From: a virus | Strand: one strand, 5' to 3' | Virus record (IMG/VR): IMGVR_UViG_3300013018_000075 | Location: 1 to 26,480 of that record | DNA: 26,480 nucleotides | Shown: positions 1,937 to 26,450 of the stretch, piece by piece | Layout of the letters: each line of letters starts with the position of its first letter | Numbering within the stretch: position 1 is the first letter of the stretch | Translations under genes and position numbers: made by a program | The notes under the pieces: generated by a model | The model's database searches: none | What the model saw: only the letters and a program-made list of their open reading frames with translations | What the model was told of the DNA's origin: nothing

Positions 1937-2209
1937 ATGCCTAATATTAAATCCAGTACGGATCTAAGAAATAATTACAATGAAATCTCTAAATTCTGTC
2001 ACGAACACGAAGAACCCATCTTCATCACTAAGAATGGTCAGGGGGACTTGGCTGTCATGAGCATCGAGGCATACGAAATGTTAAACGGCAAGGTTGAACT
2101 TTATCGTGCTCTTGATGAAGGTCGTGCCGCCATCAAAGCCGGAAAAAAACGTCCACTGGCTGATGTCATGAAGGACCTGCGACAAGAGATAACCAATGGC
2201 AACGTATAG
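1937..2209 (+). CDS. Antitoxin, Phd/YefM family
   Basis: A 90-residue protein with the Phd/YefM layout. The N-terminal DNA-binding half (STDLRNNYNEISKFCHEHEE, PIFITKNGQGDLAVMSIEAY) matches the family's conserved beginning, and a charged flexible C terminus should wrap the toxin. It neutralises the RelE-like toxin encoded next and should repress its own promoter through the 19-bp inverted repeat directly upstream. Its end overlaps the toxin start by 14 bases, giving coupled translation. It is the only operon on the plus strand in a window of minus-strand genes, and is bounded by an 8-bp direct repeat, consistent with a separately acquired cassette. Confidence 0.9.
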   Translation: MPNIKSSTDLRNNYNEISKFCHEHEEPIFITKNGQGDLAVMSIEAYEMLNGKVELYRALDEGRAAIKAGKKRPLADVMKDLRQEITNGNV

Positions 2210-2510
2210 CATTGAGGTCTCAGAGCCAGCCGAACACGACCTTCGTGATATTATCCTGTACATATCTTCACAATTGTCATCGCCAATGACGGCCATGAAT
2301 ATGATGGACACGATTGAAGAAGCACTGCTTGGGTTATCCGAAATGCCGCAGAAATGTCCGGCAGTTCGTGATGACCGGCTGGCTTCAATGGGGTACCGAA
2401 AACTCTTGATTAAGAACTATGTCGCTTTCTTTACCATCGATGAACAATCCAAAGTTGTCAACGTTGAACGAATCCTTTACGCCCGTCGTGATTGGCTTCG
2501 CATCTTGTAG
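2196..2510 (+). CDS. Toxin, RelE/ParE family
   Basis: A 104-residue protein of the RelE/ParE superfamily. Visible signatures are the opening strand YSIEVSEPAEHDLRDIILYI, the central MPQKCPAVRD region, the GYRKLLIKNYVAFF strand pair and the closing VVNVERILYARRDW. RelE-type members cut mRNA on the ribosome, whereas ParE-type members inhibit gyrase. The RILYARRDW ending occurs in both branches, so the target is open. It is translationally coupled to the Phd/YefM antitoxin. It ends 4 bases before the stop codon of the oppositely oriented HNH gene, a very tight convergent junction. Confidence 0.9.
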   Translation: MATYSIEVSEPAEHDLRDIILYISSQLSSPMTAMNMMDTIEEALLGLSEMPQKCPAVRDDRLASMGYRKLLIKNYVAFFTIDEQSKVVNVERILYARRDWLRIL

Positions 2511-2892: not shown

Positions 2893-2924
2893 AAAAAAGC
2901 CCTCACAGGTTTTCCTGTAAAGGC
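2893..2924 (-). terminator. Intrinsic terminator in the leader of the HNH/late operon
   Basis: The minus-strand RNA forms an 11-bp stem: 2924-2914 (GCC, UUU, ACAGG) pairs with 2909-2899 (CCUGU, GAG, GGC), two of the central pairs being G-U. The loop is AAAA and six U follow (2898-2893). It lies 16 bases before the HNH start and about 50 bases after the candidate late promoter start point, so it would end late transcripts early unless overridden. Confidence 0.75.
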
Positions 2925-2979
2925 ATCAATCATTTCATATATGTTTTTATTTGTTTTGACAATTTATTCTATTTTGGCA

Positions 2980-3008
2980 ATTATAATATTACCACATCTA
3001 AAATGAAA
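2980..3008 (-). promoter_or_regulatory. Candidate late promoter (activator-dependent type)
   Basis: On the minus strand: perfect -10 TATAAT (2985-2980), a 17-base spacer (3002-2986) and a poor -35 TTTCAT (3008-3003). Five 11-bp repeats begin 5 bases upstream of the -35. A good -10, weak -35 and upstream repeats are typical of promoters that need an activator. The start point would be near 2973, reading into the HNH and terminase genes. Confidence 0.5.
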
Positions 3009-3012
3009 AAGC

Positions 3013-3067
3013 AGTACACCATTAGTACACTCTTAGTACACTCTTAGTACACCTTTAGTAAACCATT
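3013..3067. repeat. Five tandem 11-bp repeats upstream of the candidate late promoter
   Basis: Units start at 3013, 3024, 3035, 3046 and 3057 and follow the pattern AGTACACYMTT. Units 2 and 3 are identical (AGTACACTCTT), and the last reads AGTAAACCATT. An 11-base period is close to one helical turn, so bound proteins would line up on one DNA face. The repeats sit in the 246-bp gap between PemK/MazF and HNH. Confidence 0.8.
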
Positions 3068-3090
3068 TAGCGTTAAGGTGTTCAAATAAT

Positions 3091-3118
3091 AAAAAAACAG
3101 CCAGATTTTTTCTGACTG
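3091..3118 (-). terminator. Intrinsic terminator ending the early/replication operon
   Basis: The minus-strand RNA pairs 3118-3111 with 3105-3098 in an 8-bp stem (one G-U), a 5-base A loop and seven U (3097-3091). It lies 5 bases after the PemK/MazF stop codon and just upstream of the 11-bp repeats, so it separates the early from the late transcription unit. Confidence 0.8.
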
Positions 3119-12146: not shown

Positions 12147-13277
12147 TTAATCCTCCATTATTTCGTTAAATTCGTTTTTTGCATTTGATACGTTTATTGC
12201 CGGTCTTTTATCCGTACCTGGAACCAAGACAGGTTTTCCAACCGGTTTGAAAATAAGATCCCCAAGGATATTTTCAAATTGTTTTTTGCCCATTAATTTT
12301 TGCATTACCGTTAAGGAAATTAAGTTCTGTTGGTAAATCTCAGTATAACCGTGTGCTATAGCTGTTTTTGCAACCAGATCTTCATCCTTATATTTACGAA
12401 CAGAGCGACCTGATACAATCTTGAACCCATTCCATTTTTTACCATGATTAATTGCTGAATCTGTGGCATATGCCATAATTTCATTAGCCCATTTTGTCAG
12501 ATCCGGAATAACAGATAAAAATTCTTCAATCTCTTCGTCTGTTAAAAGTGATGGAGATTTGAATTCATCCTGAGCCAGTTTCAGCTTTTCTTCGGCTCTT
12601 GCTCTACACCTGACTGCCGCACGACAGAAGGTACACCACTTACCAGGACAATAATTACCTTCACTATTTTTTGCCATTTGAGCTTTCGGTTTCAGTTCAT
12701 TTTCAGCCCATTCCATTAGATCAGAAACAGAGATCATCCATGTACTGACATTCTCTCTTCGTGGTTGAAAAATTGTCATTGCCACCTCTTCAAAGTCAAA
12801 CAAAATGCTATAAACAAGGGCCCCAATCGCATAACATTTCAGCTGCGGATTATCGAAGGCTTCTATCATTGTCATGCCAAATTTGAAATCAATGACATGC
12901 AACTTATTATCTGAAACAATGATACAATCAGCGGTACCATAGCCGCCAGGTACATAATCTGAAAAATCAACACGCTGTTCAATTAATACTAATGGATCCT
13001 TACAATTTTGCTTTTCAATTTCATACTGTTCCATAACAAAAGCCACATAGGCATCTGTATGTTCCTGCATTTCATCATTATCGTAATCCAAAGTTGGCTT
13101 TTTACTTTCCCGATGTAACATCGCCTTCAGCTTATACTCACATAATGCATGAGCTGCAGTACCTTCTTCCGCAGCTTGACTTGTCCTATTCTCGAATTCC
13201 GATTCCAGCAAAGCACTGGGTGCACAATTCAACCATCTGAATGAACTTGACGGCGAAAGCAACGCATGTTTACTCAC
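12147..13277 (-). CDS. DUF2800 protein, PD-(D/E)XK nuclease with Cys cluster (RecB/Cas4-like)
   Basis: A 376-residue protein. A RecB-type nuclease core is visible: His43 in GTAAHALCE, Asp117 in GTADCIIV, and Asp130-x-Lys132 in LHVIDFKFG. It is followed by QLKCYAIG, a QxxxY-like motif. Cysteines at 210, 215, 218 and 224 (CPGKWCTFCRAAVRC) resemble the iron-sulfur or zinc cluster of Cas4 and AddB nucleases. The family is a constant part of clostridial phage replication modules next to DUF2815, and a role in DNA end processing or recombination is inferred. The start is a GTG at 13277 with GGAGG 6 bases upstream, overlapping the previous gene by 8 bases. Confidence 0.88.
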   Translation of the reverse strand: MSKHALLSPSSSFRWLNCAPSALLESEFENRTSQAAEEGTAAHALCEYKLKAMLHRESKKPTLDYDNDEMQEHTDAYVAFVMEQYEIEKQNCKDPLVLIEQRVDFSDYVPGGYGTADCIIVSDNKLHVIDFKFGMTMIEAFDNPQLKCYAIGALVYSILFDFEEVAMTIFQPRRENVSTWMISVSDLMEWAENELKPKAQMAKNSEGNYCPGKWCTFCRAAVRCRARAEEKLKLAQDEFKSPSLLTDEEIEEFLSVIPDLTKWANEIMAYATDSAINHGKKWNGFKIVSGRSVRKYKDEDLVAKTAIAHGYTEIYQQNLISLTVMQKLMGKKQFENILGDLIFKPVGKPVLVPGTDKRPAINVSNAKNEFNEIMED

Positions 13278-13906: not shown

Positions 13907-14470
13907 TTAAAAATTTTCTTTTATGTATTCTTTTGCCTTGTTAATATGAATAGTAATATTTGCTGGACTAGTTTCCATTATTTTCGCTGCTTCGGTCTTG
14001 TTGTACCCTTCGATTACGACAAGCAGATAGGCTTCTTTTCTTTTTTGCGGCATTGTCTCAACGATCTCTCGCAACCGTTCAACATCGCTAGGAATATCCT
14101 GATGCATTTCACAATATGCATCTGCTAAAATTTTACTTTTATCAGTGAAATCTTCACCGTCATCATTTTCGCAAAGTCCCTCTAGCGAAAGATTCCAGTT
14201 CTTTGGAGCATTTTCATCGAGGTGCTCATCCTCCCAGATTTTATTAGCGATCTTTTCTTCTTCTGTAAATGGCGGATGTCCATTTTTACAATTATAATAA
14301 ACTTCACTGTCATCCAATGAATGCAGTGTTTTAATGTTCGTCTCAGTAACGCCATCTTCTCCAGGATGGATTATGATATACTCGGTTCTGTAACCACCCT
14401 TTCCCTCTGGTACACTAATTGGGTAACGATACACGTTACGGTCTTCCTGTCTTGTTTTACGAAATTTCAT
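13907..14470 (-). CDS. Sigma-70-like phage regulator (early operon)
   Basis: A 187-residue protein. The C terminus (about 138-187) is a clear sigma region 4 helix-turn-helix: PQKRKEAYLLVVIEGYNKTE followed by AKIMETSPANITIHINKAKE. The N-terminal 130 residues are acidic and aromatic, with no region 2, so this is not a complete sigma factor and probably acts on transcription through region 4 alone. Its ribosome site AAGG, 7 bases before the ATG at 14470, lies in one arm of an 18-base stem in the leader, so translation is probably controlled. A terminator hairpin follows directly after the stop. It is the first large gene of the early operon and the likely regulator of what follows. Confidence 0.8.
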   Translation of the reverse strand: MKFRKTRQEDRNVYRYPISVPEGKGGYRTEYIIIHPGEDGVTETNIKTLHSLDDSEVYYNCKNGHPPFTEEEKIANKIWEDEHLDENAPKNWNLSLEGLCENDDGEDFTDKSKILADAYCEMHQDIPSDVERLREIVETMPQKRKEAYLLVVIEGYNKTEAAKIMETSPANITIHINKAKEYIKENF

Positions 14471-14763
14471 TAAATTTCCTTACCTTTCTGCCTATTTAGC
14501 AGAAGGGCAAGGAAATCAAATAAAGTCGGTGCCTATGAAGTACACCGACCATTTGCCTGAAAATTAAGCATAAGGAAATAAGGGTACTTCATATTGCACC
14601 CATCACTTTTTTCACAGTGACGGTCAATATTTGTATCCATGCCCTTATAGCTAAATCAGGCTCTCGAATATTAATTTTGGGTATTAAATAATTTTTCTTT
14701 CCCCCATAAAGGTGGGATAGGCAATTCGCTTTCTAACACGTTAGCACCTATCGTTATGTAACA
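14471..14763 (-). promoter_or_regulatory. Structured 5' leader of the sigma-like gene (candidate cis-regulatory RNA)
   Basis: A 293-base gap with no convincing gene. In minus-strand RNA order it holds a GATAGG/CCTATC-closed structure (14752-14747 with 14721-14716) containing a CTAA/TTAG stem; a hairpin GTCGGTG/CACCGAC (14549-14543 with 14531-14525) followed by a broken U tract; and a long hairpin, 14516-14499 with 14491-14474, 18-base arms with one mismatch and one G-U, that buries the AAGG ribosome site of the sigma-like gene. The loop of the middle hairpin (14534-14543) is perfectly complementary over 10 bases to 14584-14593, allowing a pseudoknot or alternative pairing. No known riboswitch class was recognised. 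Confidence 0.55.
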
Positions 14764-14904
14764 TTATTTTTTCTTGCTTTTTCTCGTCTGCGCTAAAGCA
14801 CTTCCAGCTACAGACTTGGCTTTTAAACTATAACGTGCATCTCTCAAAATCTTACTTGCTTTAGAAGCTACTGATTTTGATGTTTGTTTTGAATTCTTTG
14901 CCAT
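14764..14904 (-). CDS. Small basic Ser/Ala/Lys-rich protein (46 aa)
   Basis: A 46-residue protein, MAKNSKQTSKSVASKASKIL at the start and SVAGSALAQTRKSKKK at the end, very basic and without hydrophobic segments. It has an excellent ribosome site (GGAGG, 8 bases before the ATG), so it is certainly worth calling despite its size. The pattern SVASKASKxLxDxRxS...KSVAGSALAQT is one I recognise as a recurring uncharacterised small protein of bacteria and mobile elements; its role is unknown to me. Its composition suggests nucleic-acid binding. It is the first gene after the defence block and may share a transcript with the sigma-like gene that follows. Confidence 0.75.
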   Translation of the reverse strand: MAKNSKQTSKSVASKASKILRDARYSLKAKSVAGSALAQTRKSKKK

Positions 14905-14989
14905 ACTAATCACCTCCATTCATCCAAAATTTCAGGCTTATTTAATGCCTGTACTTAATTTACTTCAAAATAAGAAATCTGTAATCAAC

Positions 14990-15022
14990 TTGAAATATAG
15001 CTGAAATACAGTTGAAATATAT
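14990..15022. repeat. Three tandem 11-bp repeats upstream of the early operon
   Basis: Units TTGAAATATAG (14990), CTGAAATACAG (15001) and TTGAAATATAT (15012). The last unit runs into a perfect 14-bp palindrome, TGAAATATATTTCA (15013-15026). The 177-bp gap 14905-15081 has no gene. The repeats lie 86 bases upstream of the 46-aa gene, where the early promoter and its operators would be expected, although I see no convincing -35/-10 pair. Confidence 0.55.
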
Positions 15023-15033
15023 TTCATGACAAT

Positions 15034-15067
15034 AAAAAAAGAGCCACTCACATAATGTGAGTGACTC
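15034..15067 (-). terminator. Strong intrinsic terminator of the ABC-3C-type operon
   Basis: The minus-strand RNA pairs 15067-15056 with 15052-15041 in a 12-bp stem (one G-U) with a 3-base loop and seven U (15040-15034). It starts 15 bases after the stop codon of the ATPase gene and separates the defence operon from the phage early region. Confidence 0.9.
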
Positions 15068-15081
15068 CACAATAAACCTTA

Positions 15082-18734: not shown

Positions 18735-20336
18735 CTAGATTTCAACCCCTAGAAGTTTAAGCTGCTCATTGATTTCTTTTTCCAACTGCTCAATTTCGGC
18801 ATTGTCCTGCTGAAGTAGACGATTCACTTCATCCAGATCAATCGGTGCTTCTTCTTCAAAGGTATCGACGTACCGGGGAATATTCAAGTTATAATCATTG
18901 GCTTGGATTTCGTCAATTGAGGCAACATGAGCATATTTTTCAATATCCTGGCGGGTTTTAAAGGTCTCGATAATCTTATTGATATGGTCGTCACTGAGAT
19001 TATTCTGATTTTTGCCTTTTTCATAGTCATTGCTGGCATCAATGAAGAGAATATCTTTGGTTTGGCGGTTTTTCTTAAAGACCAGAATCGTCGTCGGGAT
19101 GCTGGTGCCGTAGAATAAATTAGCTGGCAGACCGATTACCGTATCGAGAACGTTCTTTTCAATCAGGGTCTGTCGGATTTTACCCTCAGCCGCCCCCCGG
19201 AACAAGACCCCATGGGGTAAGACAATCGCCATCGTGCCGGTGCTGTTAAGGTGATAAAGACTATGTAGGATAAAGGCAAAGTCGGCCTTTGAAGCTGGAG
19301 CCAGTTTGCCATATTCGCTAAAACGGGGGTCTTTTAATTTGCTTTCCGGATTATCCCATTTGGCCGAGTAGGGCGGATTCGCCACCACCGCATCAAAGCT
19401 GCGGGGCTGATCAATCCCTTTGGCATCCGGGCCATCGGGCCAGTCACTTTCTAAGGTATCAGCATTATGCAGGGTCATGTTATTAAACGAAACCCCATGC
19501 ATCATCAGATTCATCCGAGCCAGGTTGTAGGTGGTGGTGTTTAATTCCTGGCCGTAAAATTTGATGGCCCCGGTGTGATCGCCGCCTGGCAATTCACTGC
19601 GGACGGTTAAGAGCAGCGACCCGGAGCCCATGGTCGGGTCATACAGGGTAAAGGCTGTATCGGAGGCCGTCACATCTGCTGTCACCAGCTTGGCCAGAAT
19701 CTGACTGACCTGATGGGGGGTGTAGAATTCGCCCCCTTTTTTTCCAGCTGAAGCGGCAAATTGACCGATTAGGTATTCGTAGATTTCGCCCAGTACATCT
19801 TTTCCGTCAGCGCCATGATAATCAATCGCATCAACCAGCTTGACGATATTATTCAGCGATTTGGCCCGGGCGGTAGTGGATGCTCCCAGCCGGGAATCGC
19901 CGAGGTTGATATCATTGAAAACGCCGCTAAAATCCTGAGCCGCTTCTTTATTTAACTCGGTATTGCGGTTAAAGTTGTCAAAAATCGTCTGATAATCGCT
20001 GGGTATCACCTGACTGTCGGCAATTTTTTCGGTCAACGAGACCCAGGTGTCATCCGGGGCAATGGCATAGCCTAGGCTTGCCGAGATATCATCGAGGTAA
20101 TCAGCCAGATCCGCTTCGCTGGCCTGTTCCTTAAAGGCTTCGTTAACGGTTTGCCCCGCCATGACATCAATGACATGGTTGGAAACCAGATAGTCTTCCT
20201 GGTGTTCCGATAAATAGCGGTAGAACATGAAGGCCAGGATATAGTTTTTAAATTCGCCGGCGTCCATATTGCCCCGCAGCTCGTTGGCCATGGCCCAGAG
20301 TTTACTGGTGATGGATTGTAAAGTGTTATTTGACAT
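18735..20336 (-). CDS. hsdM: Type I restriction-modification methyltransferase subunit HsdM
   Basis: A 533-residue N6-adenine methyltransferase subunit. The N-terminal helical HsdM domain (SKLWAMANELRGNMDAGEFK and on) is followed by GGEFYTP (201-207), SAM-binding motif I YDPTMGSGSLL (232-242) and catalytic motif IV NPPY (320-323). The C terminus carries a coiled segment for contact with HsdS. All motifs needed for activity are present. The HsdM N terminus and the HsdR active-site spacing both fit the EcoR124I-like (type IC) branch. It pairs with HsdS to protect host DNA and with HsdR to cut foreign DNA. Here it is the last gene of the operon. The ATG at 20336 has AAAGGA upstream, 24 bases after the hsdS stop. 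Confidence 0.96.
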   Translation of the reverse strand: MSNNTLQSITSKLWAMANELRGNMDAGEFKNYILAFMFYRYLSEHQEDYLVSNHVIDVMAGQTVNEAFKEQASEADLADYLDDISASLGYAIAPDDTWVSLTEKIADSQVIPSDYQTIFDNFNRNTELNKEAAQDFSGVFNDINLGDSRLGASTTARAKSLNNIVKLVDAIDYHGADGKDVLGEIYEYLIGQFAASAGKKGGEFYTPHQVSQILAKLVTADVTASDTAFTLYDPTMGSGSLLLTVRSELPGGDHTGAIKFYGQELNTTTYNLARMNLMMHGVSFNNMTLHNADTLESDWPDGPDAKGIDQPRSFDAVVANPPYSAKWDNPESKLKDPRFSEYGKLAPASKADFAFILHSLYHLNSTGTMAIVLPHGVLFRGAAEGKIRQTLIEKNVLDTVIGLPANLFYGTSIPTTILVFKKNRQTKDILFIDASNDYEKGKNQNNLSDDHINKIIETFKTRQDIEKYAHVASIDEIQANDYNLNIPRYVDTFEEEAPIDLDEVNRLLQQDNAEIEQLEKEINEQLKLLGVEI

Positions 20337-20360
20337 AAGTTGATCCTTTCGTTTGGGTAT

Positions 20361-21581
20361 TTAAACAAACATTTGTTGCAATAAGGCTTTTTTTCGGTTT
20401 TGGAGATGGTCCAGTTTGCGTTGGTGGAGGGTGATAAGGTTGTCGAGGTTACTAAAGTAGTCCCCAATTTTGATTTGTTCTTCTTCATTTGGAAACATAA
20501 AATGCATATTTTTAAACATACCGTTTGTGATTTGATTAATTGTTGCCCCAAGATTTTTTTCCACTTCTTTATCAAAAACTGGTGTACTTAATAATGCATT
20601 TGTGAAAGCAGTGTTTGATGATCTCATTCCCATCATAAATGCTCCTATAACAGTATTGTCCATTTTAGCCTTGATTTGACCGTGTTTTCCTATTAATGAA
20701 CGCGAGCCATTTCTTACAACGACAATAACATCTCCCTCATGTACATTGTCCACATTAACAACCTCTGATTTTACATAGATATTATCTGCATTAATAACCT
20801 CTCCATTTTTTACATTGGATGAACGAAGTACAAGTGTACCTCCTCCTTTAATAACATCGTTAGGAGAGTATGTTAATCCACTATATAATTCTACTTCATC
20901 AGTTAACTTACGCTGTTCCCAGGCATCCGTAAATCCCGGAAAACGCAGCTCCGGAAAAAGCTCGCCAGCTTTGGGGAACATTTTTTGCAGCAGCCCTTTT
21001 TTTCGGACTTGCAAATGGGTAAGCTTACGCTGATGAAGGGTGATTAAGCGATCGAGTTGTTTAAAGAAATTAGTGATTTTCTCCTGTTCAGCTACCGAAG
21101 GTATGCAGCACAAAACGTCAGTAAACGAATCCCAATATAATCGTTTCCTGAAGTCCGTAACCCCATAAGACAAATTGTCAATCTGACCAATCGTTTCATC
21201 ACGTCGCAAACAATAATCCATAAATGGAGGATAAAGTTGCGCACTGGGAATCGCTGTAATATATGCAGGACTTACCATCCCTTCTGTCTGTACAACGCCG
21301 ATCGCCCCTTGCCATGCACGCATCATGTTTAGAACAAGATCTCCAGCATATACATGTTTATAGAGTGACTTATCCTCACTTCTTCGCACTTTTTTTCCTA
21401 AAGTGTCACTGTCCAATTCTTCGTTTGATACACCATGGTGAATCGAGACGGAAAGAATCTGTAACGAATCAAAACCGCGTTCATTTCTCTGAGTGTAAAC
21501 TTCCCCCAATTTCCGCTCTTCCCACTCCCCGCTAAACCCCGGGAACCGTAACTGCGGCACCATCTTCTTTTTTTTACTCAT
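20361..21581 (-). CDS. hsdS: Type I restriction-modification specificity subunit HsdS
   Basis: A 406-residue subunit with the classic two-fold internal repeat. Each half begins with LRFPGF...W(E)ERKL or EQRKL, carries a variable target-recognition domain and ends with a conserved coiled coil (LITLHQRKLTHLQVRKKGLL in the first, LITLHQRKLDHLQNRKKALL in the second). The two target-recognition domains define a bipartite DNA target that cannot be read from the sequence. The frame opens at 21662, but the ATG at 21581 (MSKKKKMVPQLRFPGF) has AAGGGGG upstream and matches how relatives begin. It overlaps the rhuM-like gene by 8 bases. Both repeat halves are intact, so it should give a functional enzyme. 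Confidence 0.94.
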   Translation of the reverse strand: MSKKKKMVPQLRFPGFSGEWEERKLGEVYTQRNERGFDSLQILSVSIHHGVSNEELDSDTLGKKVRRSEDKSLYKHVYAGDLVLNMMRAWQGAIGVVQTEGMVSPAYITAIPSAQLYPPFMDYCLRRDETIGQIDNLSYGVTDFRKRLYWDSFTDVLCCIPSVAEQEKITNFFKQLDRLITLHQRKLTHLQVRKKGLLQKMFPKAGELFPELRFPGFTDAWEQRKLTDEVELYSGLTYSPNDVIKGGGTLVLRSSNVKNGEVINADNIYVKSEVVNVDNVHEGDVIVVVRNGSRSLIGKHGQIKAKMDNTVIGAFMMGMRSSNTAFTNALLSTPVFDKEVEKNLGATINQITNGMFKNMHFMFPNEEEQIKIGDYFSNLDNLITLHQRKLDHLQNRKKALLQQMFV

Positions 21582-22578
21582 TGCCGCCCCCTTGGATCTT
21601 TCTGATTTCCTCATCAAAATCAGAAACAATCTTTTGATGTTGATTAAATTCTTTGTATTCACCGATCGCCTTTTGCTTGGCCGTATTGTGTGAGATATGG
21701 CCGTGTCTTTTTAGAATTTCATACCGGTTGAATTTAAGGAATTCATCAATACTCGTCGCAAAATCCTGCATCGATAAGAGGGTTTCATCTTCAAGAAGCC
21801 GTTCCACATAGTCAAAATACGCCGAAACATTACGCTCCAAACTTCTGATTTCTTTTTCTGATAAATAGTTTTTAGCAACCGTCACATCGGACTGTAAAAT
21901 TCGACCATCCGGGGCGTTTTTCCAGGTCGTCAGTCCCATGTGTTCTTTATCCTGATCAGCGCTGTCATAAATAATTTCAGCGGCTGTTTTACCGGTTATG
22001 GCAAAATGAAATTTGTTTTGAACGGTTGCATAGAAATTTTTGGTAATATCTGATTTCTTATCATAGTCGTAAGAAATCTCGGCAAACACATCGGTGATTT
22101 GTTGCCAAATTCTGCGTTCGCTGGCTCTGATGGAGCGAACCGTTTCCAGCAACTCACGGAAATAATCTTTGCCAAAGACCGCTTCACCTTGTTTCATTCG
22201 CTCGACATCGATCTTAAAACCTTTTTTTATATAGTCCTTTAAGACATCGGTCGCCCAGATTCGAAATTTCGTGGCCTTTTGGGAGTTAACACGATAGCCC
22301 ACCGAAATAATTGCATCAAGATTATAAAATTTAACGTCTTTGGTCTGAGTTTTTCCTGCAATTGCGCCATGCTGCGTGGTATTTTCCAAAATGGAAACAA
22401 CCACTTTTTCGTCTAGTTCGCCAGACTCAAAGATATTCTTAAGGTGCTTACTTATTGCCGGAACACCAACATCGAATAAACCAGCAATCGCTTTTTGGGT
22501 CGCCCAGATCGTTTCATCTTTCATTACGACTTCAATTTTCTCATCGGATTCATATAGTAAAAATTGTATCTCGTTCAT
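21574..22578 (-). CDS. RhuM-family protein
   Basis: A 334-residue protein of the RhuM family. Its start EIQFLLYESDEKIEVVMKDE, the ETIWATQKAIAGLFDVGVPA helix-turn-helix, and KFYNLDAIISVGYRVNSQKA are the N-terminal signature shared with Fic/DOC-associated and phage antirepressor-like N-terminal domains. The second half (from about 145) contains FHFAITGKTAAEIIYDSADQ and a helical end. RhuM-like genes are often found inside type I restriction loci; their biochemical role is unknown. It sits between hsdR and hsdS, is translationally coupled to hsdS, and has AAGGAAGG before its ATG. No Fic motif (HxFxxGN) is present. Confidence 0.9.
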   Translation of the reverse strand: MNEIQFLLYESDEKIEVVMKDETIWATQKAIAGLFDVGVPAISKHLKNIFESGELDEKVVVSILENTTQHGAIAGKTQTKDVKFYNLDAIISVGYRVNSQKATKFRIWATDVLKDYIKKGFKIDVERMKQGEAVFGKDYFRELLETVRSIRASERRIWQQITDVFAEISYDYDKKSDITKNFYATVQNKFHFAITGKTAAEIIYDSADQDKEHMGLTTWKNAPDGRILQSDVTVAKNYLSEKEIRSLERNVSAYFDYVERLLEDETLLSMQDFATSIDEFLKFNRYEILKRHGHISHNTAKQKAIGEYKEFNQHQKIVSDFDEEIRKIQGGGNE

Positions 22579-22637
22579 TGTACCTTCCTTTTCATAATCG
22601 TCCTGATCCAGTCATTCGAAAATTCCAATGTTTTTCC

Positions 22638-25600
22638 CTAGCTTTCTGTCAGCTCATCCGCTAATTCATACAGAGCTTCCCGCAAGCCATTGCGGTACTT
22701 GATCTTGGACAAACCCTGGACTTTTTCATCGTGGGCCAGGGTCTGATAATCGCCGCTGGCATTGGCAATGATGTCCCGAATCTGTCCATTATCATCGAGA
22801 TCCTGCTGGCCATAGCGGTGACGGCTGAATAGTTCCCGCATCTGAGCGCTGGTGATGACGTCAATGATGCCCCATTTAATGCGAAAATCCTGAAACTGGC
22901 GATCGAGACTAACCGCATTGGCGGCTTGAATGACGGGATCACTCTCACTTAATCGGGCCGGATAGTTTTCAACGGTGTAATGGCCGTTAAAAATGGTTTT
23001 GGCGGCATTTTTAATCTTGCTGGCATAGTTTCGGTCATCCAGACCATTGGCAAACTGATCGATTTTTGCTTTGGTATCAACCGCTGCCTGGTGCTCTTTG
23101 TCATGGACCTGGTTGAGTAATTTTTCTAATAGTTCAGTCAAATAATCATAGTCGATCTTAACATCCTTGACATGGGTCATCCGCAGCTCGATCTGATAGA
23201 AGGAAACTTTTTTTTCTTTGGCGATTTGTTGCCGCAACTCATTGCTTAACACCGTGGTCAACATCGTTTCTTCGGTCGAGGTCATCCCCAGGGCTGCGAT
23301 TAAATCATCCGGCGCATCGTAATTAAAGCCGATTTTTTCACCGTCTACGGTTTCCGGATCATATTGTTTCAGCTTGGACATCCCCATATTATACTGTCTT
23401 AATAGCGTAAGCATTTGCTCTTTCTGCTTTTCGCTGGGAGGTAGCGCCTGAAAGGCGTCGGTCAGCTCTTTTAATTGTCCCACCACATCTTTGACCTCTG
23501 TAAACACGGTTTCAAAAGGCTTGGCGATGATCCCATCATCTTCGATGGTTTTTTTACGTTCATCTTCAGACAAATTGGCTGAATCTTTATTGGCATAGAT
23601 GGCCAGGGCCTTGTTCATCAGTTGTTCGTTCTGGGCTGGCCAGCGGTAATTGACAATCCGGCCCCAGGGTTTTTCCTGCATATCGGCAATCCGATTGGTG
23701 CGTGAATAAGCTTGAATCAAGGCGGCCCCTCTTAAGGTCCGGTCGACATAAAGGGTATTTAACTCTGGGGCGTCAAAACCGGTCAGCAGCTGATCAACCA
23801 CAATCACCAGGTCGAGATAGTTCTTGTCGGTGGCGGTGCGGTTTAAGCGGCTGGTAACATCCTGGGTATAACTGGCCACATCATCCATCCCGAAGCTGGT
23901 ACCGAATTCCTGATTGTAGGCCGTTATCGCTTCACATAAGCCTTTGTTGGTGGCCAATTGGGTTTCATTATTTGAGGTGTTCAGGCTGAAGGTTACAGCG
24001 ACTTTGAGGGTTTGTTTGCCTTTTTCCTTGTTTACTAAATTAACCCGCTGGAACTCATGGAAATAGAGCATTGCCATCGGGGTGCTGGCTTTGCCGCCGC
24101 CGACATGGGTGGTGAAGATGGCGTTATATTTGCCTTCATTGGAGCGGTTGCGCCAGTTTTTAAAAATATCCTCAACGACTAAAGCAATGTGCTCGGGATT
24201 CTCATCATAAAAGCTGGGTTTGATGGTATCATCAATATCTTCGTCAGTCAGATTGTCAATTTTCAACTGAATCTGGGCATCGGTCCAGTGGGGATAAAGG
24301 TTTTGATAAAAGGCCGGTAAATACTCCGTCTTCATTTGCGTTTCATTGATAGTCGTTTCAAAATCGACTTTAAAGCCGAGTACATTACGATCGGCTATCG
24401 CTTCCCGGATGGTGTAGGCATGCAGCAGCGGCCCGAAAATATCCTCGGACCTGAGACCCGTCGTGGTTTCATCAAACATCGGTGTCCCGGTATAACCGAC
24501 CCAGGCGGATCGCTTAAAGGCCTTTTGAATCGTCGCAAAATTCTCGCCCCCGGTACTACGATGTGCTTCATCAACAATAAAGACGATGTTTTTATCAGGT
24601 GCCTTGAAGGTCTTACGATTAACCAGAGTCCCCAGTTTTTGAACCGAGGTGACAATAATATGATTGTCTTTGCTTTTTAATTTACGGCTAAGATCGTTAG
24701 TATTTTCGGTGCCCTGTACCGTTCCTGATCGAGTGACATCGCTGACATCGCCATCCGGATCATAGGCCTGATAATTTTCATCGGTCTGTTTAGTCAGAGC
24801 AATCCGGTCGACTACAAAGACGACTTTATCGACCTTCGGCATCCGGGAAGCCAGCCAGGCCGTCTTAAAACTGGTGATGGTTTTACCGGAGCCGGTGGTA
24901 TGCCAAATATAACCCACTTTTTTATTGCCGGCATCAAAATCAATCTGCTTGATGCCATCAATCACCTTTTGGGTAGCATAGACCTGATAAGGGCGCATCA
25001 CTTTAAGCATCTGTTTGTTCCTGGTGCCATCTAAAATCATATAGTTGGTGGCCATTTGATGCGCCATGGGGATGCTCAGCATCGCATCGGCAAACTCTTT
25101 CCAGTTGCGGACAATAGTATTATCTTCTTTGCGCTGCCAGTTAAAGGCAAAATCCTTATTAAACTTATCGGCGGTGGTATTGGCCATATACTTAACGTTG
25201 TTGGGCGTTATCGCCACCAAAATTTGTAATGTGGAGAAGATATCTCGAAACTGATTTTCGTCCGCATATTGATGCATCTGGTTTAAGGCTTCATTGACAT
25301 CATGGGTATCACATTTTTCTTCAATTTGAATAATCGGCAGCCCATTGATCAGTAGGGTTGTATCAAAACGCCGCTTCTGCTTGCCGGTGATCACAGCTGG
25401 ACGCTCAATCTGATTGACCACCTGATAAACCGTATCGCCGGCACCGATTTGCTTTTGGTCAAAAACTGTTAGAAAAACATGACGGCCATCGTCTAAATCA
25501 ATTTCAATTTGTGAGACCCCGTTTAATCCGTATAAAAATTGACCGCCTTCGTAGGGAGTCCGAAGCTCCGAAATGATTTTCTTGACCTGACCAAATTCCA

Positions 25601-25844
25601 CCGCACTGAGGGGCAGATTCAGGGTTTTCTGATTGTGCTGCTCAAGAATTGTTTTGAAATTATCCCACAATGCTTCGGTCGTTTTGATATCTTGTTCGTA
25701 TTTCCACAGTTTCGTTTTCACCACATAATGAGCCGGCTTTTCTTCCACCCCATTTGCATCAATGGTACTGTTTTTTTCAGGATTGGTGATTGTTCCGCTG
25801 GTGATATACTCGATTAATTCTGTTTCAAACTGATTCTCTGTCAT
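22638..25844 (-). CDS. hsdR: Type I restriction-modification restriction subunit HsdR
   Basis: A 1068-residue motor-nuclease. The N-terminal nuclease core is FDTTLLINGLPIIQIEEK with Asp161, Glu175 and Lys177, the same 14-residue and 2-residue spacing as Asp151/Glu165/Lys167 of EcoR124I. The superfamily 2 translocase follows: Walker A TTGSGKT (316-322), DEAH (425-428), GYTGTP (450-455), then the second RecA-like domain with the arginine motif in YSRTNR. The C terminus is helical, as needed for docking on the methylase. All catalytic residues are present. The ATG at 25844 has GGAGG 9 bases upstream and overlaps the upstream half-HsdS gene by 20 bases. HsdR translocates and cuts unmethylated DNA. 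Confidence 0.96.
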   Translation of the reverse strand: MTENQFETELIEYITSGTITNPEKNSTIDANGVEEKPAHYVVKTKLWKYEQDIKTTEALWDNFKTILEQHNQKTLNLPLSAVEFGQVKKIISELRTPYEGGQFLYGLNGVSQIEIDLDDGRHVFLTVFDQKQIGAGDTVYQVVNQIERPAVITGKQKRRFDTTLLINGLPIIQIEEKCDTHDVNEALNQMHQYADENQFRDIFSTLQILVAITPNNVKYMANTTADKFNKDFAFNWQRKEDNTIVRNWKEFADAMLSIPMAHQMATNYMILDGTRNKQMLKVMRPYQVYATQKVIDGIKQIDFDAGNKKVGYIWHTTGSGKTITSFKTAWLASRMPKVDKVVFVVDRIALTKQTDENYQAYDPDGDVSDVTRSGTVQGTENTNDLSRKLKSKDNHIIVTSVQKLGTLVNRKTFKAPDKNIVFIVDEAHRSTGGENFATIQKAFKRSAWVGYTGTPMFDETTTGLRSEDIFGPLLHAYTIREAIADRNVLGFKVDFETTINETQMKTEYLPAFYQNLYPHWTDAQIQLKIDNLTDEDIDDTIKPSFYDENPEHIALVVEDIFKNWRNRSNEGKYNAIFTTHVGGGKASTPMAMLYFHEFQRVNLVNKEKGKQTLKVAVTFSLNTSNNETQLATNKGLCEAITAYNQEFGTSFGMDDVASYTQDVTSRLNRTATDKNYLDLVIVVDQLLTGFDAPELNTLYVDRTLRGAALIQAYSRTNRIADMQEKPWGRIVNYRWPAQNEQLMNKALAIYANKDSANLSEDERKKTIEDDGIIAKPFETVFTEVKDVVGQLKELTDAFQALPPSEKQKEQMLTLLRQYNMGMSKLKQYDPETVDGEKIGFNYDAPDDLIAALGMTSTEETMLTTVLSNELRQQIAKEKKVSFYQIELRMTHVKDVKIDYDYLTELLEKLLNQVHDKEHQAAVDTKAKIDQFANGLDDRNYASKIKNAAKTIFNGHYTVENYPARLSESDPVIQAANAVSLDRQFQDFRIKWGIIDVITSAQMRELFSRHRYGQQDLDDNGQIRDIIANASGDYQTLAHDEKVQGLSKIKYRNGLREALYELADELTES

Positions 25845-26415
25845 GCTTCATTACCTCCCCCAGTTGGTGCAATCGTATCATCGTTTCCTGCTTAGCTGCC
25901 CTATTTTTTAATGCCTGCAACCGCAATTGTTTAAAATATATTTCGCCAATTATTTTTTGCTTCTCTATAAAGGGTAATGTTGGGATTTCGAGATCTTTTA
26001 TTTGTTTAAGTGTGTATTTTAGAACTTTCGACCCTTGTAAACCGTTAAGCAATTGTTTTTTGATGGCGCTGTTTTCATTTAATAAATAAACAAGAAATTG
26101 TCCGTTGAGTTTCTCTTTTGGAACCAATTTGACATAGTTTTGAGTATATAGATAGCCTCTATGTTCTTCCCTGATGACTGAGGCACTCCCAGAAATCAAA
26201 CTGAAAAGAACATCACCTGTAAAAAGTGTGTTTACATCATCCCTCGTACGAAGGCGTTTTTTACCATCATCTTCAGCTGGGATACCAACTAAATCCTCCA
26301 ATAAATCGGTCTGACTATACAAGTTGTAGATCGGCGACTGTTTATCAATGCTCTCGGTAATTCTAAATTGAGGTGTTCCACTGACAAAATCAACAAGCAT
26401 ACTTAACTTTTTCAT
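25825..26415 (-). CDS. Half-length type I specificity subunit (single target-recognition domain)
   Basis: A 196-residue HsdS-like protein, about half the usual length, with one target-recognition domain (VDFVSGTPQFRITE near the N terminus, LFTGDVLFSLISGSA, GYLYTQNYVKLVP, LKYTLKQIKDLEIPTLPFIE) and one terminal helix. The LRFPGF anchors of the full HsdS are absent, so it is not a fragment of that gene. Half-size specificity proteins can dimerise to give a symmetric target, and it may offer a second specificity. The ATG at 26415 has AAGG 7 bases upstream (the in-frame ATG at 26430 lacks one). It is the first gene of the operon, ends inside the hsdR start, and has a good promoter just upstream. 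Confidence 0.82.
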   Translation of the reverse strand: MKKLSMLVDFVSGTPQFRITESIDKQSPIYNLYSQTDLLEDLVGIPAEDDGKKRLRTRDDVNTLFTGDVLFSLISGSASVIREEHRGYLYTQNYVKLVPKEKLNGQFLVYLLNENSAIKKQLLNGLQGSKVLKYTLKQIKDLEIPTLPFIEKQKIIGEIYFKQLRLQALKNRAAKQETMIRLHQLGEVMKHDRESV

Positions 26416-26450
26416 TTTTGTGCCTTTCATAAATTACTTTTATATTTAGG

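Follow-up and report, generated by a model that had tools for sequence, protein, structure and literature searches.

The DUF2800 RNA (RF02960) is a cis-regulatory candidate of Firmicutes phages that lies directly 5′ of a sigma-like gene in loci L013, L016, and L024. The window analyzed here, a 26,480-nucleotide stretch of viral DNA (IMG/VR record IMGVR_UViG_3300013018_000075), carries a leader RNA at the same site, at the start of a DUF2800/DUF2815-type phage operon, which is also the location of RF02960. In both RNAs a core strand is able to pair with the anti-Shine-Dalgarno (anti-SD) strand in place of the SD. They differ in the order of their helices, and whereas the pseudoknot strand of the DUF2800 RNA is itself the anti-SD, the window RNA uses a separate segment, D, together with a terminator-like hairpin, T (segments and helices are located below). 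Riboswitches with translational expression platforms (anti-SD/anti-anti-SD) likewise combine a core with exclusive helices that hide or expose the SD, but the window RNA occurs so far only before regulators of phages or mobile elements. Transcription attenuators are similar in that segment C of the window RNA is common to the terminator-like hairpin and to an upstream pairing; in the window family, however, some members have an imperfect terminator or none, and the A:D/P6 layer works at the ribosome site. Antitermination by RNA is documented in phages and in mobile elements of Gram-positive bacteria (PMC8955417). The processive antiterminators put, EAR, and conAn2 are, like the window RNA, structured RNAs that start a long mobile-element operon; the window RNA differs from them in that helices which expose or hide the SD link it to a single start codon.

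The sequence-only reading of this DNA recognized no known riboswitch class, and Rfam 15 indeed gives no match at gathering scores; at relaxed thresholds, only chance or microRNA-model matches on the hairpin over the ribosome binding site (RBS) were returned, and these were discarded. RF02960 has no match in the window at its gathering score, none at E up to 5 in 14300-15000, and none in the loci carrying the window-type RNA. Conversely, R1, a covariance model of the P1-P4 core of the window RNA, yields no match in L009, L013, L014, L016, L024, and L034 up to E = 10. Membership of the window RNA in RF02960 was rejected by both models, neither of which recognizes the other's loci. A literature search returned no description of the window RNA, which could be present as an unnamed candidate in the 2017 survey of 224 candidate RNAs or in the supplementary tables of PMC8040213.

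The 293-nt leader (14763-14471, minus strand) was read directly. Its last hairpin, P6 (14474..14516, minus; -26.3 kcal/mol), joins 14516-14499 (AUUUCCUUGCCCUUCUGC) to 14491-14474 (GCAGAAAGGUAAGGAAAU) with 17 of 18 positions paired; there is one G.U and one C.A. Both AAGG copies 5′ of the ATG at 14470 lie inside this hairpin, as had been claimed, and the SD candidates within it are 14487-14483 and 14481-14477 (minus). None of 300 dinucleotide shuffles of the leader produced a hairpin of this kind, and the leader extended by the first codons has a folding energy of -102.5 kcal/mol, compared with -68.4 ± 4.9 kcal/mol for shuffles (z = -7.0). The hairpin T (GGUCGGUG..CACCGACU; 14524..14550, minus) precedes P6. 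Its 14549-14525 portion, GUCGGUG/CACCGAC, was already described in the sequence-only reading, as was the broken U tract directly 3′ of it (UUUAUUUG, 14523-14516, minus). The loop of T, segment C (14543-14534, GUACUUCAUA), is exactly complementary over 10 bases to segment B (14593-14584, UAUGAAGUAC), also as described; some 10-base complement at least 30 nt apart appears in 47 of 1000 shuffles, so that in the window sequence alone this pseudoknot is only mildly unusual.

Comparison with relatives makes this weak single-sequence case for a predicted switch a strong one. The leader DNA matches four Ruminococcus phages and one Terrisporobacter phage at 74-79% identity. A search with the sigma-like gene yielded 36 IMG/VR loci, many with the same leader, and a short motif pattern found 41 viral and 39 genome stretches, which come from Lachnospiraceae, Anaerococcus, Veillonella, Gardnerella, Atopobium, and others. 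Two further patterns brought in another 54 viral stretches; among these, a few overlap contigs already in the set, such as that of L007. Plasmid records gave no match. R1 had matches in 9 genomes of one class (391 searched), 6 of a second class (300 searched), and 1 of a phylum (296 searched), where each count includes the center genome, chosen for carrying the RNA. The six also include L145, the weakest match, which has no GATAC motif and appears to have been matched by chance. Dozens of Firmicutes (pro)phages or mobile elements, and a few from Actinomycetota, carry the core RNA. By reading, L045 and L107 have the region 3′ of T, including P6, broken or replaced, apparently by deletion.

The core (about 14663-14516, minus) is conserved in these relatives, and an alignment of 47 loci (A1) bears out the closed multi-stem element that had been noticed further 5′, which we resolve into P1-P4. 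The closing stem P1 joins GCCUGA (14656..14661, minus) to UCAGGC (14555..14560, minus); 97.5% of its cells are paired, mostly by invariance. P2 pairs AGCUAUAAGG (14643..14652, minus) with CCUUAUGCU (14567..14575, minus), shows double changes in A1, and is fully compensated as GCAAUAAGG/CCUUAUUGC in other subgroups. P3 pairs GGAUAC (14638-14633, minus), inside segment A, with GUACCC (14587-14582, minus), which is overlapped by segment B. P4, with a hairpin between its strands (14625..14631 and CAAUAU at 14591..14596, both minus), has double changes in 7 of 8 pairs in the 47-locus alignment and ranks first in the segment scan described below. Together, P1-P4 and T have 89.4% of their cells paired, falling to 30-43% when the partners are slid, and contain 81 double-change cells versus 27.5 in shuffles; P1 and half of P3 scarcely vary and add nothing to the covariation evidence. 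Because RNAalifold on the full alignment recovers only part of P1-P4, we counted the named helices and scanned all pairs of segments instead. Conservation and covariation of the stems in related phages, whose absence had been set beforehand as grounds for refutation, are therefore present. A leader peptide was considered and, on inspection of the sequences, rejected: the ATG frame at 14640 in the window is not kept, relatives mostly having UUG or another triplet, and L038 has an early stop.

The unbiased scan covered all 595 pairs of 18-column segments in 23 non-redundant sequences below 80% identity. P4, T, B:C, A:D, and P6 take the top ranks, T being second, with P2 somewhat lower and little else; A:D reaches -3.6 kcal/mol per locus against a mean of -0.18 over all pairs. 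The two competing partners of D thus coevolve with it, as do those of C. Hairpin T has double changes in 6 of 7 pairs. In B:C (B at 14584..14593, overlapping the P4 and P3 3′ strands; C at 14534..14543, both minus), 96.6% of cells are paired, four pairs have double changes, and double-change cells number 10 versus 0.9 in shuffles across the 47 loci. The cognate score of B:C is 427.5, compared with 350.9 ± 8.0 (maximum 372) for non-cognate partners in 300 permutations. The helix is typically 8-10 pairs long, for example UUUUAGUAC/GUACUAAAA in L007 and UUGAUGUAC/GUACAUCAA in L012, and full pairing of C with B and with the 3′ arm of T is mutually exclusive.

That T and B:C both covary while overlapping at C is what would be seen if the leader were a transcription attenuator only, with B:C as the antiterminator opposing T and the RBS hairpin merely blocking translation of read-through from outside. 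We hold this to be very unlikely, since it leaves the coevolution of A with D (below) unexplained and several relatives are without a convincing T. T covaries in most relatives but is weak or lost in L046, L053, L095, and L109, and its U tract is often broken; these observations suggest that transcription control at T may not be general across the family. In the window, a consensus terminator scan did not report T as a terminator.

A long-range helix, A:D, which connects the sensor-like part with the ribosome site, had been overlooked in the sequence-only reading, as had the DUF2800 RNA that occupies this site in relatives; the reading was otherwise right about the hairpins, the 10-base complement, and the multi-stem part. 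Segment A (AGGGCAUGGAUACAAA; 14630..14645, minus) pairs either within the core or with segment D (AUUUGAUUUCCUUGCCCUU; 14503..14521, minus), the 5′ arm of P6 and hence the anti-SD arm; in the window the helix (14645-14630 with 14521-14503) is worth -15.3 kcal/mol. The core strand A (AAGGGC..GGGAUACAAA) is complementary to D with compensatory changes, as in L086 (GGCGAUGGAUAC/GCAUCCAUCGCC), L046 (UGAGGAUACGC/GCGUGUCCUCA), L109 (ACGCAA/UUGCGU), and L025 (GAG/CUC). Across 52 loci, the cognate total is -1093.7 kcal/mol, compared with -902.4 ± 15.2 when partners are exchanged (best of 500, -938.3) and -540 when D is shuffled, with the exchanged-partner controls leaving some shared ancestry in these and the other coevolution comparisons. 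Segment A came to attention while some of the 52 loci were being inspected, and 29 further IMG/VR loci from the two further patterns serve as the independent test. They are non-redundant among themselves and have mostly other core sequences, although L180 and L007 share a contig and a few are similar to L132-L138 from the 52-locus test. With A defined by rule, from 13 bases before GATAC to 7 after the GATAC start, the mean for A:D was -21.65 versus -18.96 ± 0.38 with exchanged partners, and that for B:C was -10.49 versus -8.14 ± 0.35; 0 of 2000 permutations reached the cognate value in either case. The whole-genome loci L142 and L143 also fit, and L144, without GATAC, shows GGCAAAGGA/UCCUUUGCC by eye. 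A subgroup formed by L139, L192, and L194 has a weak or no T and B:C and a strong A:D (GGGCCGGGAUAC/UUCCGGCUC) before short sigma-like proteins, possibly from conjugative elements; the related L193 has kept T and B:C.

The coevolution of A with D across T also requires one molecule or a trans interaction, which bears on a simpler account: an ordinary RBS hairpin beside an unrelated conserved RNA, such as a trans-acting phage RNA ending at T, with no switching at all. A separate small RNA could have its 3′ end at T, and the energy model favors the fold with P6 (fold 1, below) in most loci, yet A and D, which flank T, coevolve in two sets of loci, and we regard this account as most unlikely. No promoter-like site was found within 14471-14525, where a transcript start would have spoken against the leader; elements 5′ and 3′ of this stretch coevolve, so one RNA must contain both.

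We return to the two-state switch. P6 is predicted in all 47 aligned loci (mean -18.6 kcal/mol, mean z -3.9) and coevolves in the segment scan. The SD is thus paired in one conserved helix, P6, and a second conserved helix, A:D, excludes P6 and frees the SD, as is looked for in a translational switch; the pairings of D with A and with the SD arm are mutually exclusive. When the folds are forced, the SD is open at 0.32 in fold 1 and 0.84 in fold 2, with a mean energy gap of 5.6 kcal/mol, or 7.5 kcal/mol with B:C enforced, where these energies leave out pseudoknots, proteins, and ligands. Fold 2 is the minimum-free-energy (MFE) structure in 8 of the 47 loci, and the MFE structures of L041 and L073 are the putative ON state. 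The window has one of the weakest A:D helices (-15.3 kcal/mol) and one of the strongest P6 hairpins (-26.3 kcal/mol), and nearest-neighbor energies there accordingly favor fold 1 by about 11 kcal/mol. In constrained folds of the window, the P1 5′ stretch 14661-14650 can pair with the P6 loop 14500-14490 in fold 2 (GCCUGAUUUAGC with GCUAAAUAGGC). The covariation shows that the RNA keeps two mutually exclusive sets of predicted helices under selection, because A:D rules out the hairpin that hides the SD, and B:C is a competitor of T and P3.

These observations suggest to us that the leader is probably a two-state RNA switch acting in cis on the first gene of the early operon, in line with the RNA switch proposed earlier from a sensor-like part, an alternative pairing, and a hidden ribosome site, which the conserved, covarying stems and the pseudoknot support. 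In fold 1, the core P1-P4 would be closed, T formed, and the SD masked by P6, made of D and the SD arm; this would be the OFF state, with translation blocked and transcription perhaps attenuated at T. In fold 2, A would pair with D so that P6 cannot form and the SD is free, and B would pair with C in competition with P3 and the upper part of T, giving the ON state. The choice between the states would be made by stabilizing or opening the core through a metabolite, a phage or host protein, an RNA, or folding kinetics. That the leader senses something and decides on the fate of the prophage, we infer. From these comparative data, we conclude that the leader represents a putative new class of two-state RNA switch that works on translation and perhaps on transcription as well.

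The gene that would be regulated encodes a 187-aa sigma-70-region-4-like protein (13907..14470, minus; PF08281, E 7e-8; PHROG 1740, RNA polymerase sigma factor). In relatives, too, the gene 3′ of the RNA is nearly always sigma-70-region-4-like by Pfam, PHROG 1740/11138, or resemblance; several of these proteins fall below the Pfam cutoff, and a few are without a Pfam match. This association would fit a feedback site, at which the sigma-like protein or another operon product would repress translation of its own gene on binding the leader. The N-terminal parts of the sigma-like proteins vary widely, however, and in L091 the gene after the RNA (2919-3103, minus) is that of a Rha antirepressor; A:D and P6 are retained there, and B:C is replaced by a GGGAUAC/GUACCC hairpin. 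We judge feedback unlikely as a full explanation; such binding could also be the trigger of the two-state switch and is hence only partly a rival to it.

The early operon encodes the sigma-like protein, a DUF2800 nuclease-like protein (12147-13277, downstream of the leader; PF10926, E 3e-149), a single-stranded DNA-binding/annealing protein, and a PolA-like polymerase. Upstream of the RNA lies a small ORF for a basic, Lys/Ser-rich 46-aa protein (14767..14904, minus; PHROG 5079), which in most loci having it is about 75-120 nt 5′ of the RNA and in two is 218-298 nt away. It is possibly cotranscribed with the leader and may be the true first gene of the operon. The gene upstream of the small ORF is closed by a strong terminator-like hairpin at 15040-15068 (minus), which probably places the start of the operon transcript between 15040 and 14904. 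Elsewhere in the window, methylase-, specificity-, and helicase-like entries in the ORF list read as a type I restriction-modification-like cluster (18735-26430, minus), which has the same strand as the phage operon and is upstream of it, and two adjacent small ORFs at 1937-2510 (plus), opposite the phage operon, resemble a RelB/RelE-type toxin-antitoxin pair.

An RNA at the start of so long an operon, adjoining a terminator-like hairpin, might instead be a processive antitermination RNA like HK022 put, EAR, or conAn2, which would let polymerase read through T and other terminators of the operon and make the RBS hairpin secondary. The phage and Gram-positive mobile-element precedents cited above (PMC8955417) favor this idea, but it explains neither why A coevolves with the anti-SD arm, D, nor why the RBS hairpin is kept at the start codon, and L046 and L109 have lost T while keeping A:D. 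We consider it quite unlikely.

The two-fold reading of the window RNA extends to the DUF2800 RNA. In six DUF2800-type loci (L013, L014, L016, L024, L034, and L009; three of the six were scanned with Rfam and reach RF02960 gathering), the strand just 5′ of the SD has two alternative partners, the SD arm (-15 to -22 kcal/mol) and an upstream core strand (-20 to -25 kcal/mol), giving exclusive B:C and C:SD helices. The RF02960 match ends 5′ of the SD-hiding strand in DUF2800 RNA loci. A short string, CCUACUAGCUA, is common to L006 and L016 and makes a distant homology of the two RNAs possible.

At its fullest, our reading, to which we give slightly less than an even chance, is that of a new ligand- or protein-sensing RNA class in gut Firmicutes phages and mobile elements, in which a core strand mimics the SD arm and one refolding both antiterminates and exposes the ribosome site of an early regulator. 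The little-studied DUF2800 RNA gains a likely mechanism, because its anti-SD strand is common to a core helix and the SD, as in the window RNA. If the reading is true, the window RNA and the DUF2800 RNA would form a group of distinct RNAs with the same operon position and the same logic. The timing of the early replication operon in phages of anaerobic gut Firmicutes is largely unexplored, and the two-fold RNA would offer a concrete, testable control point.
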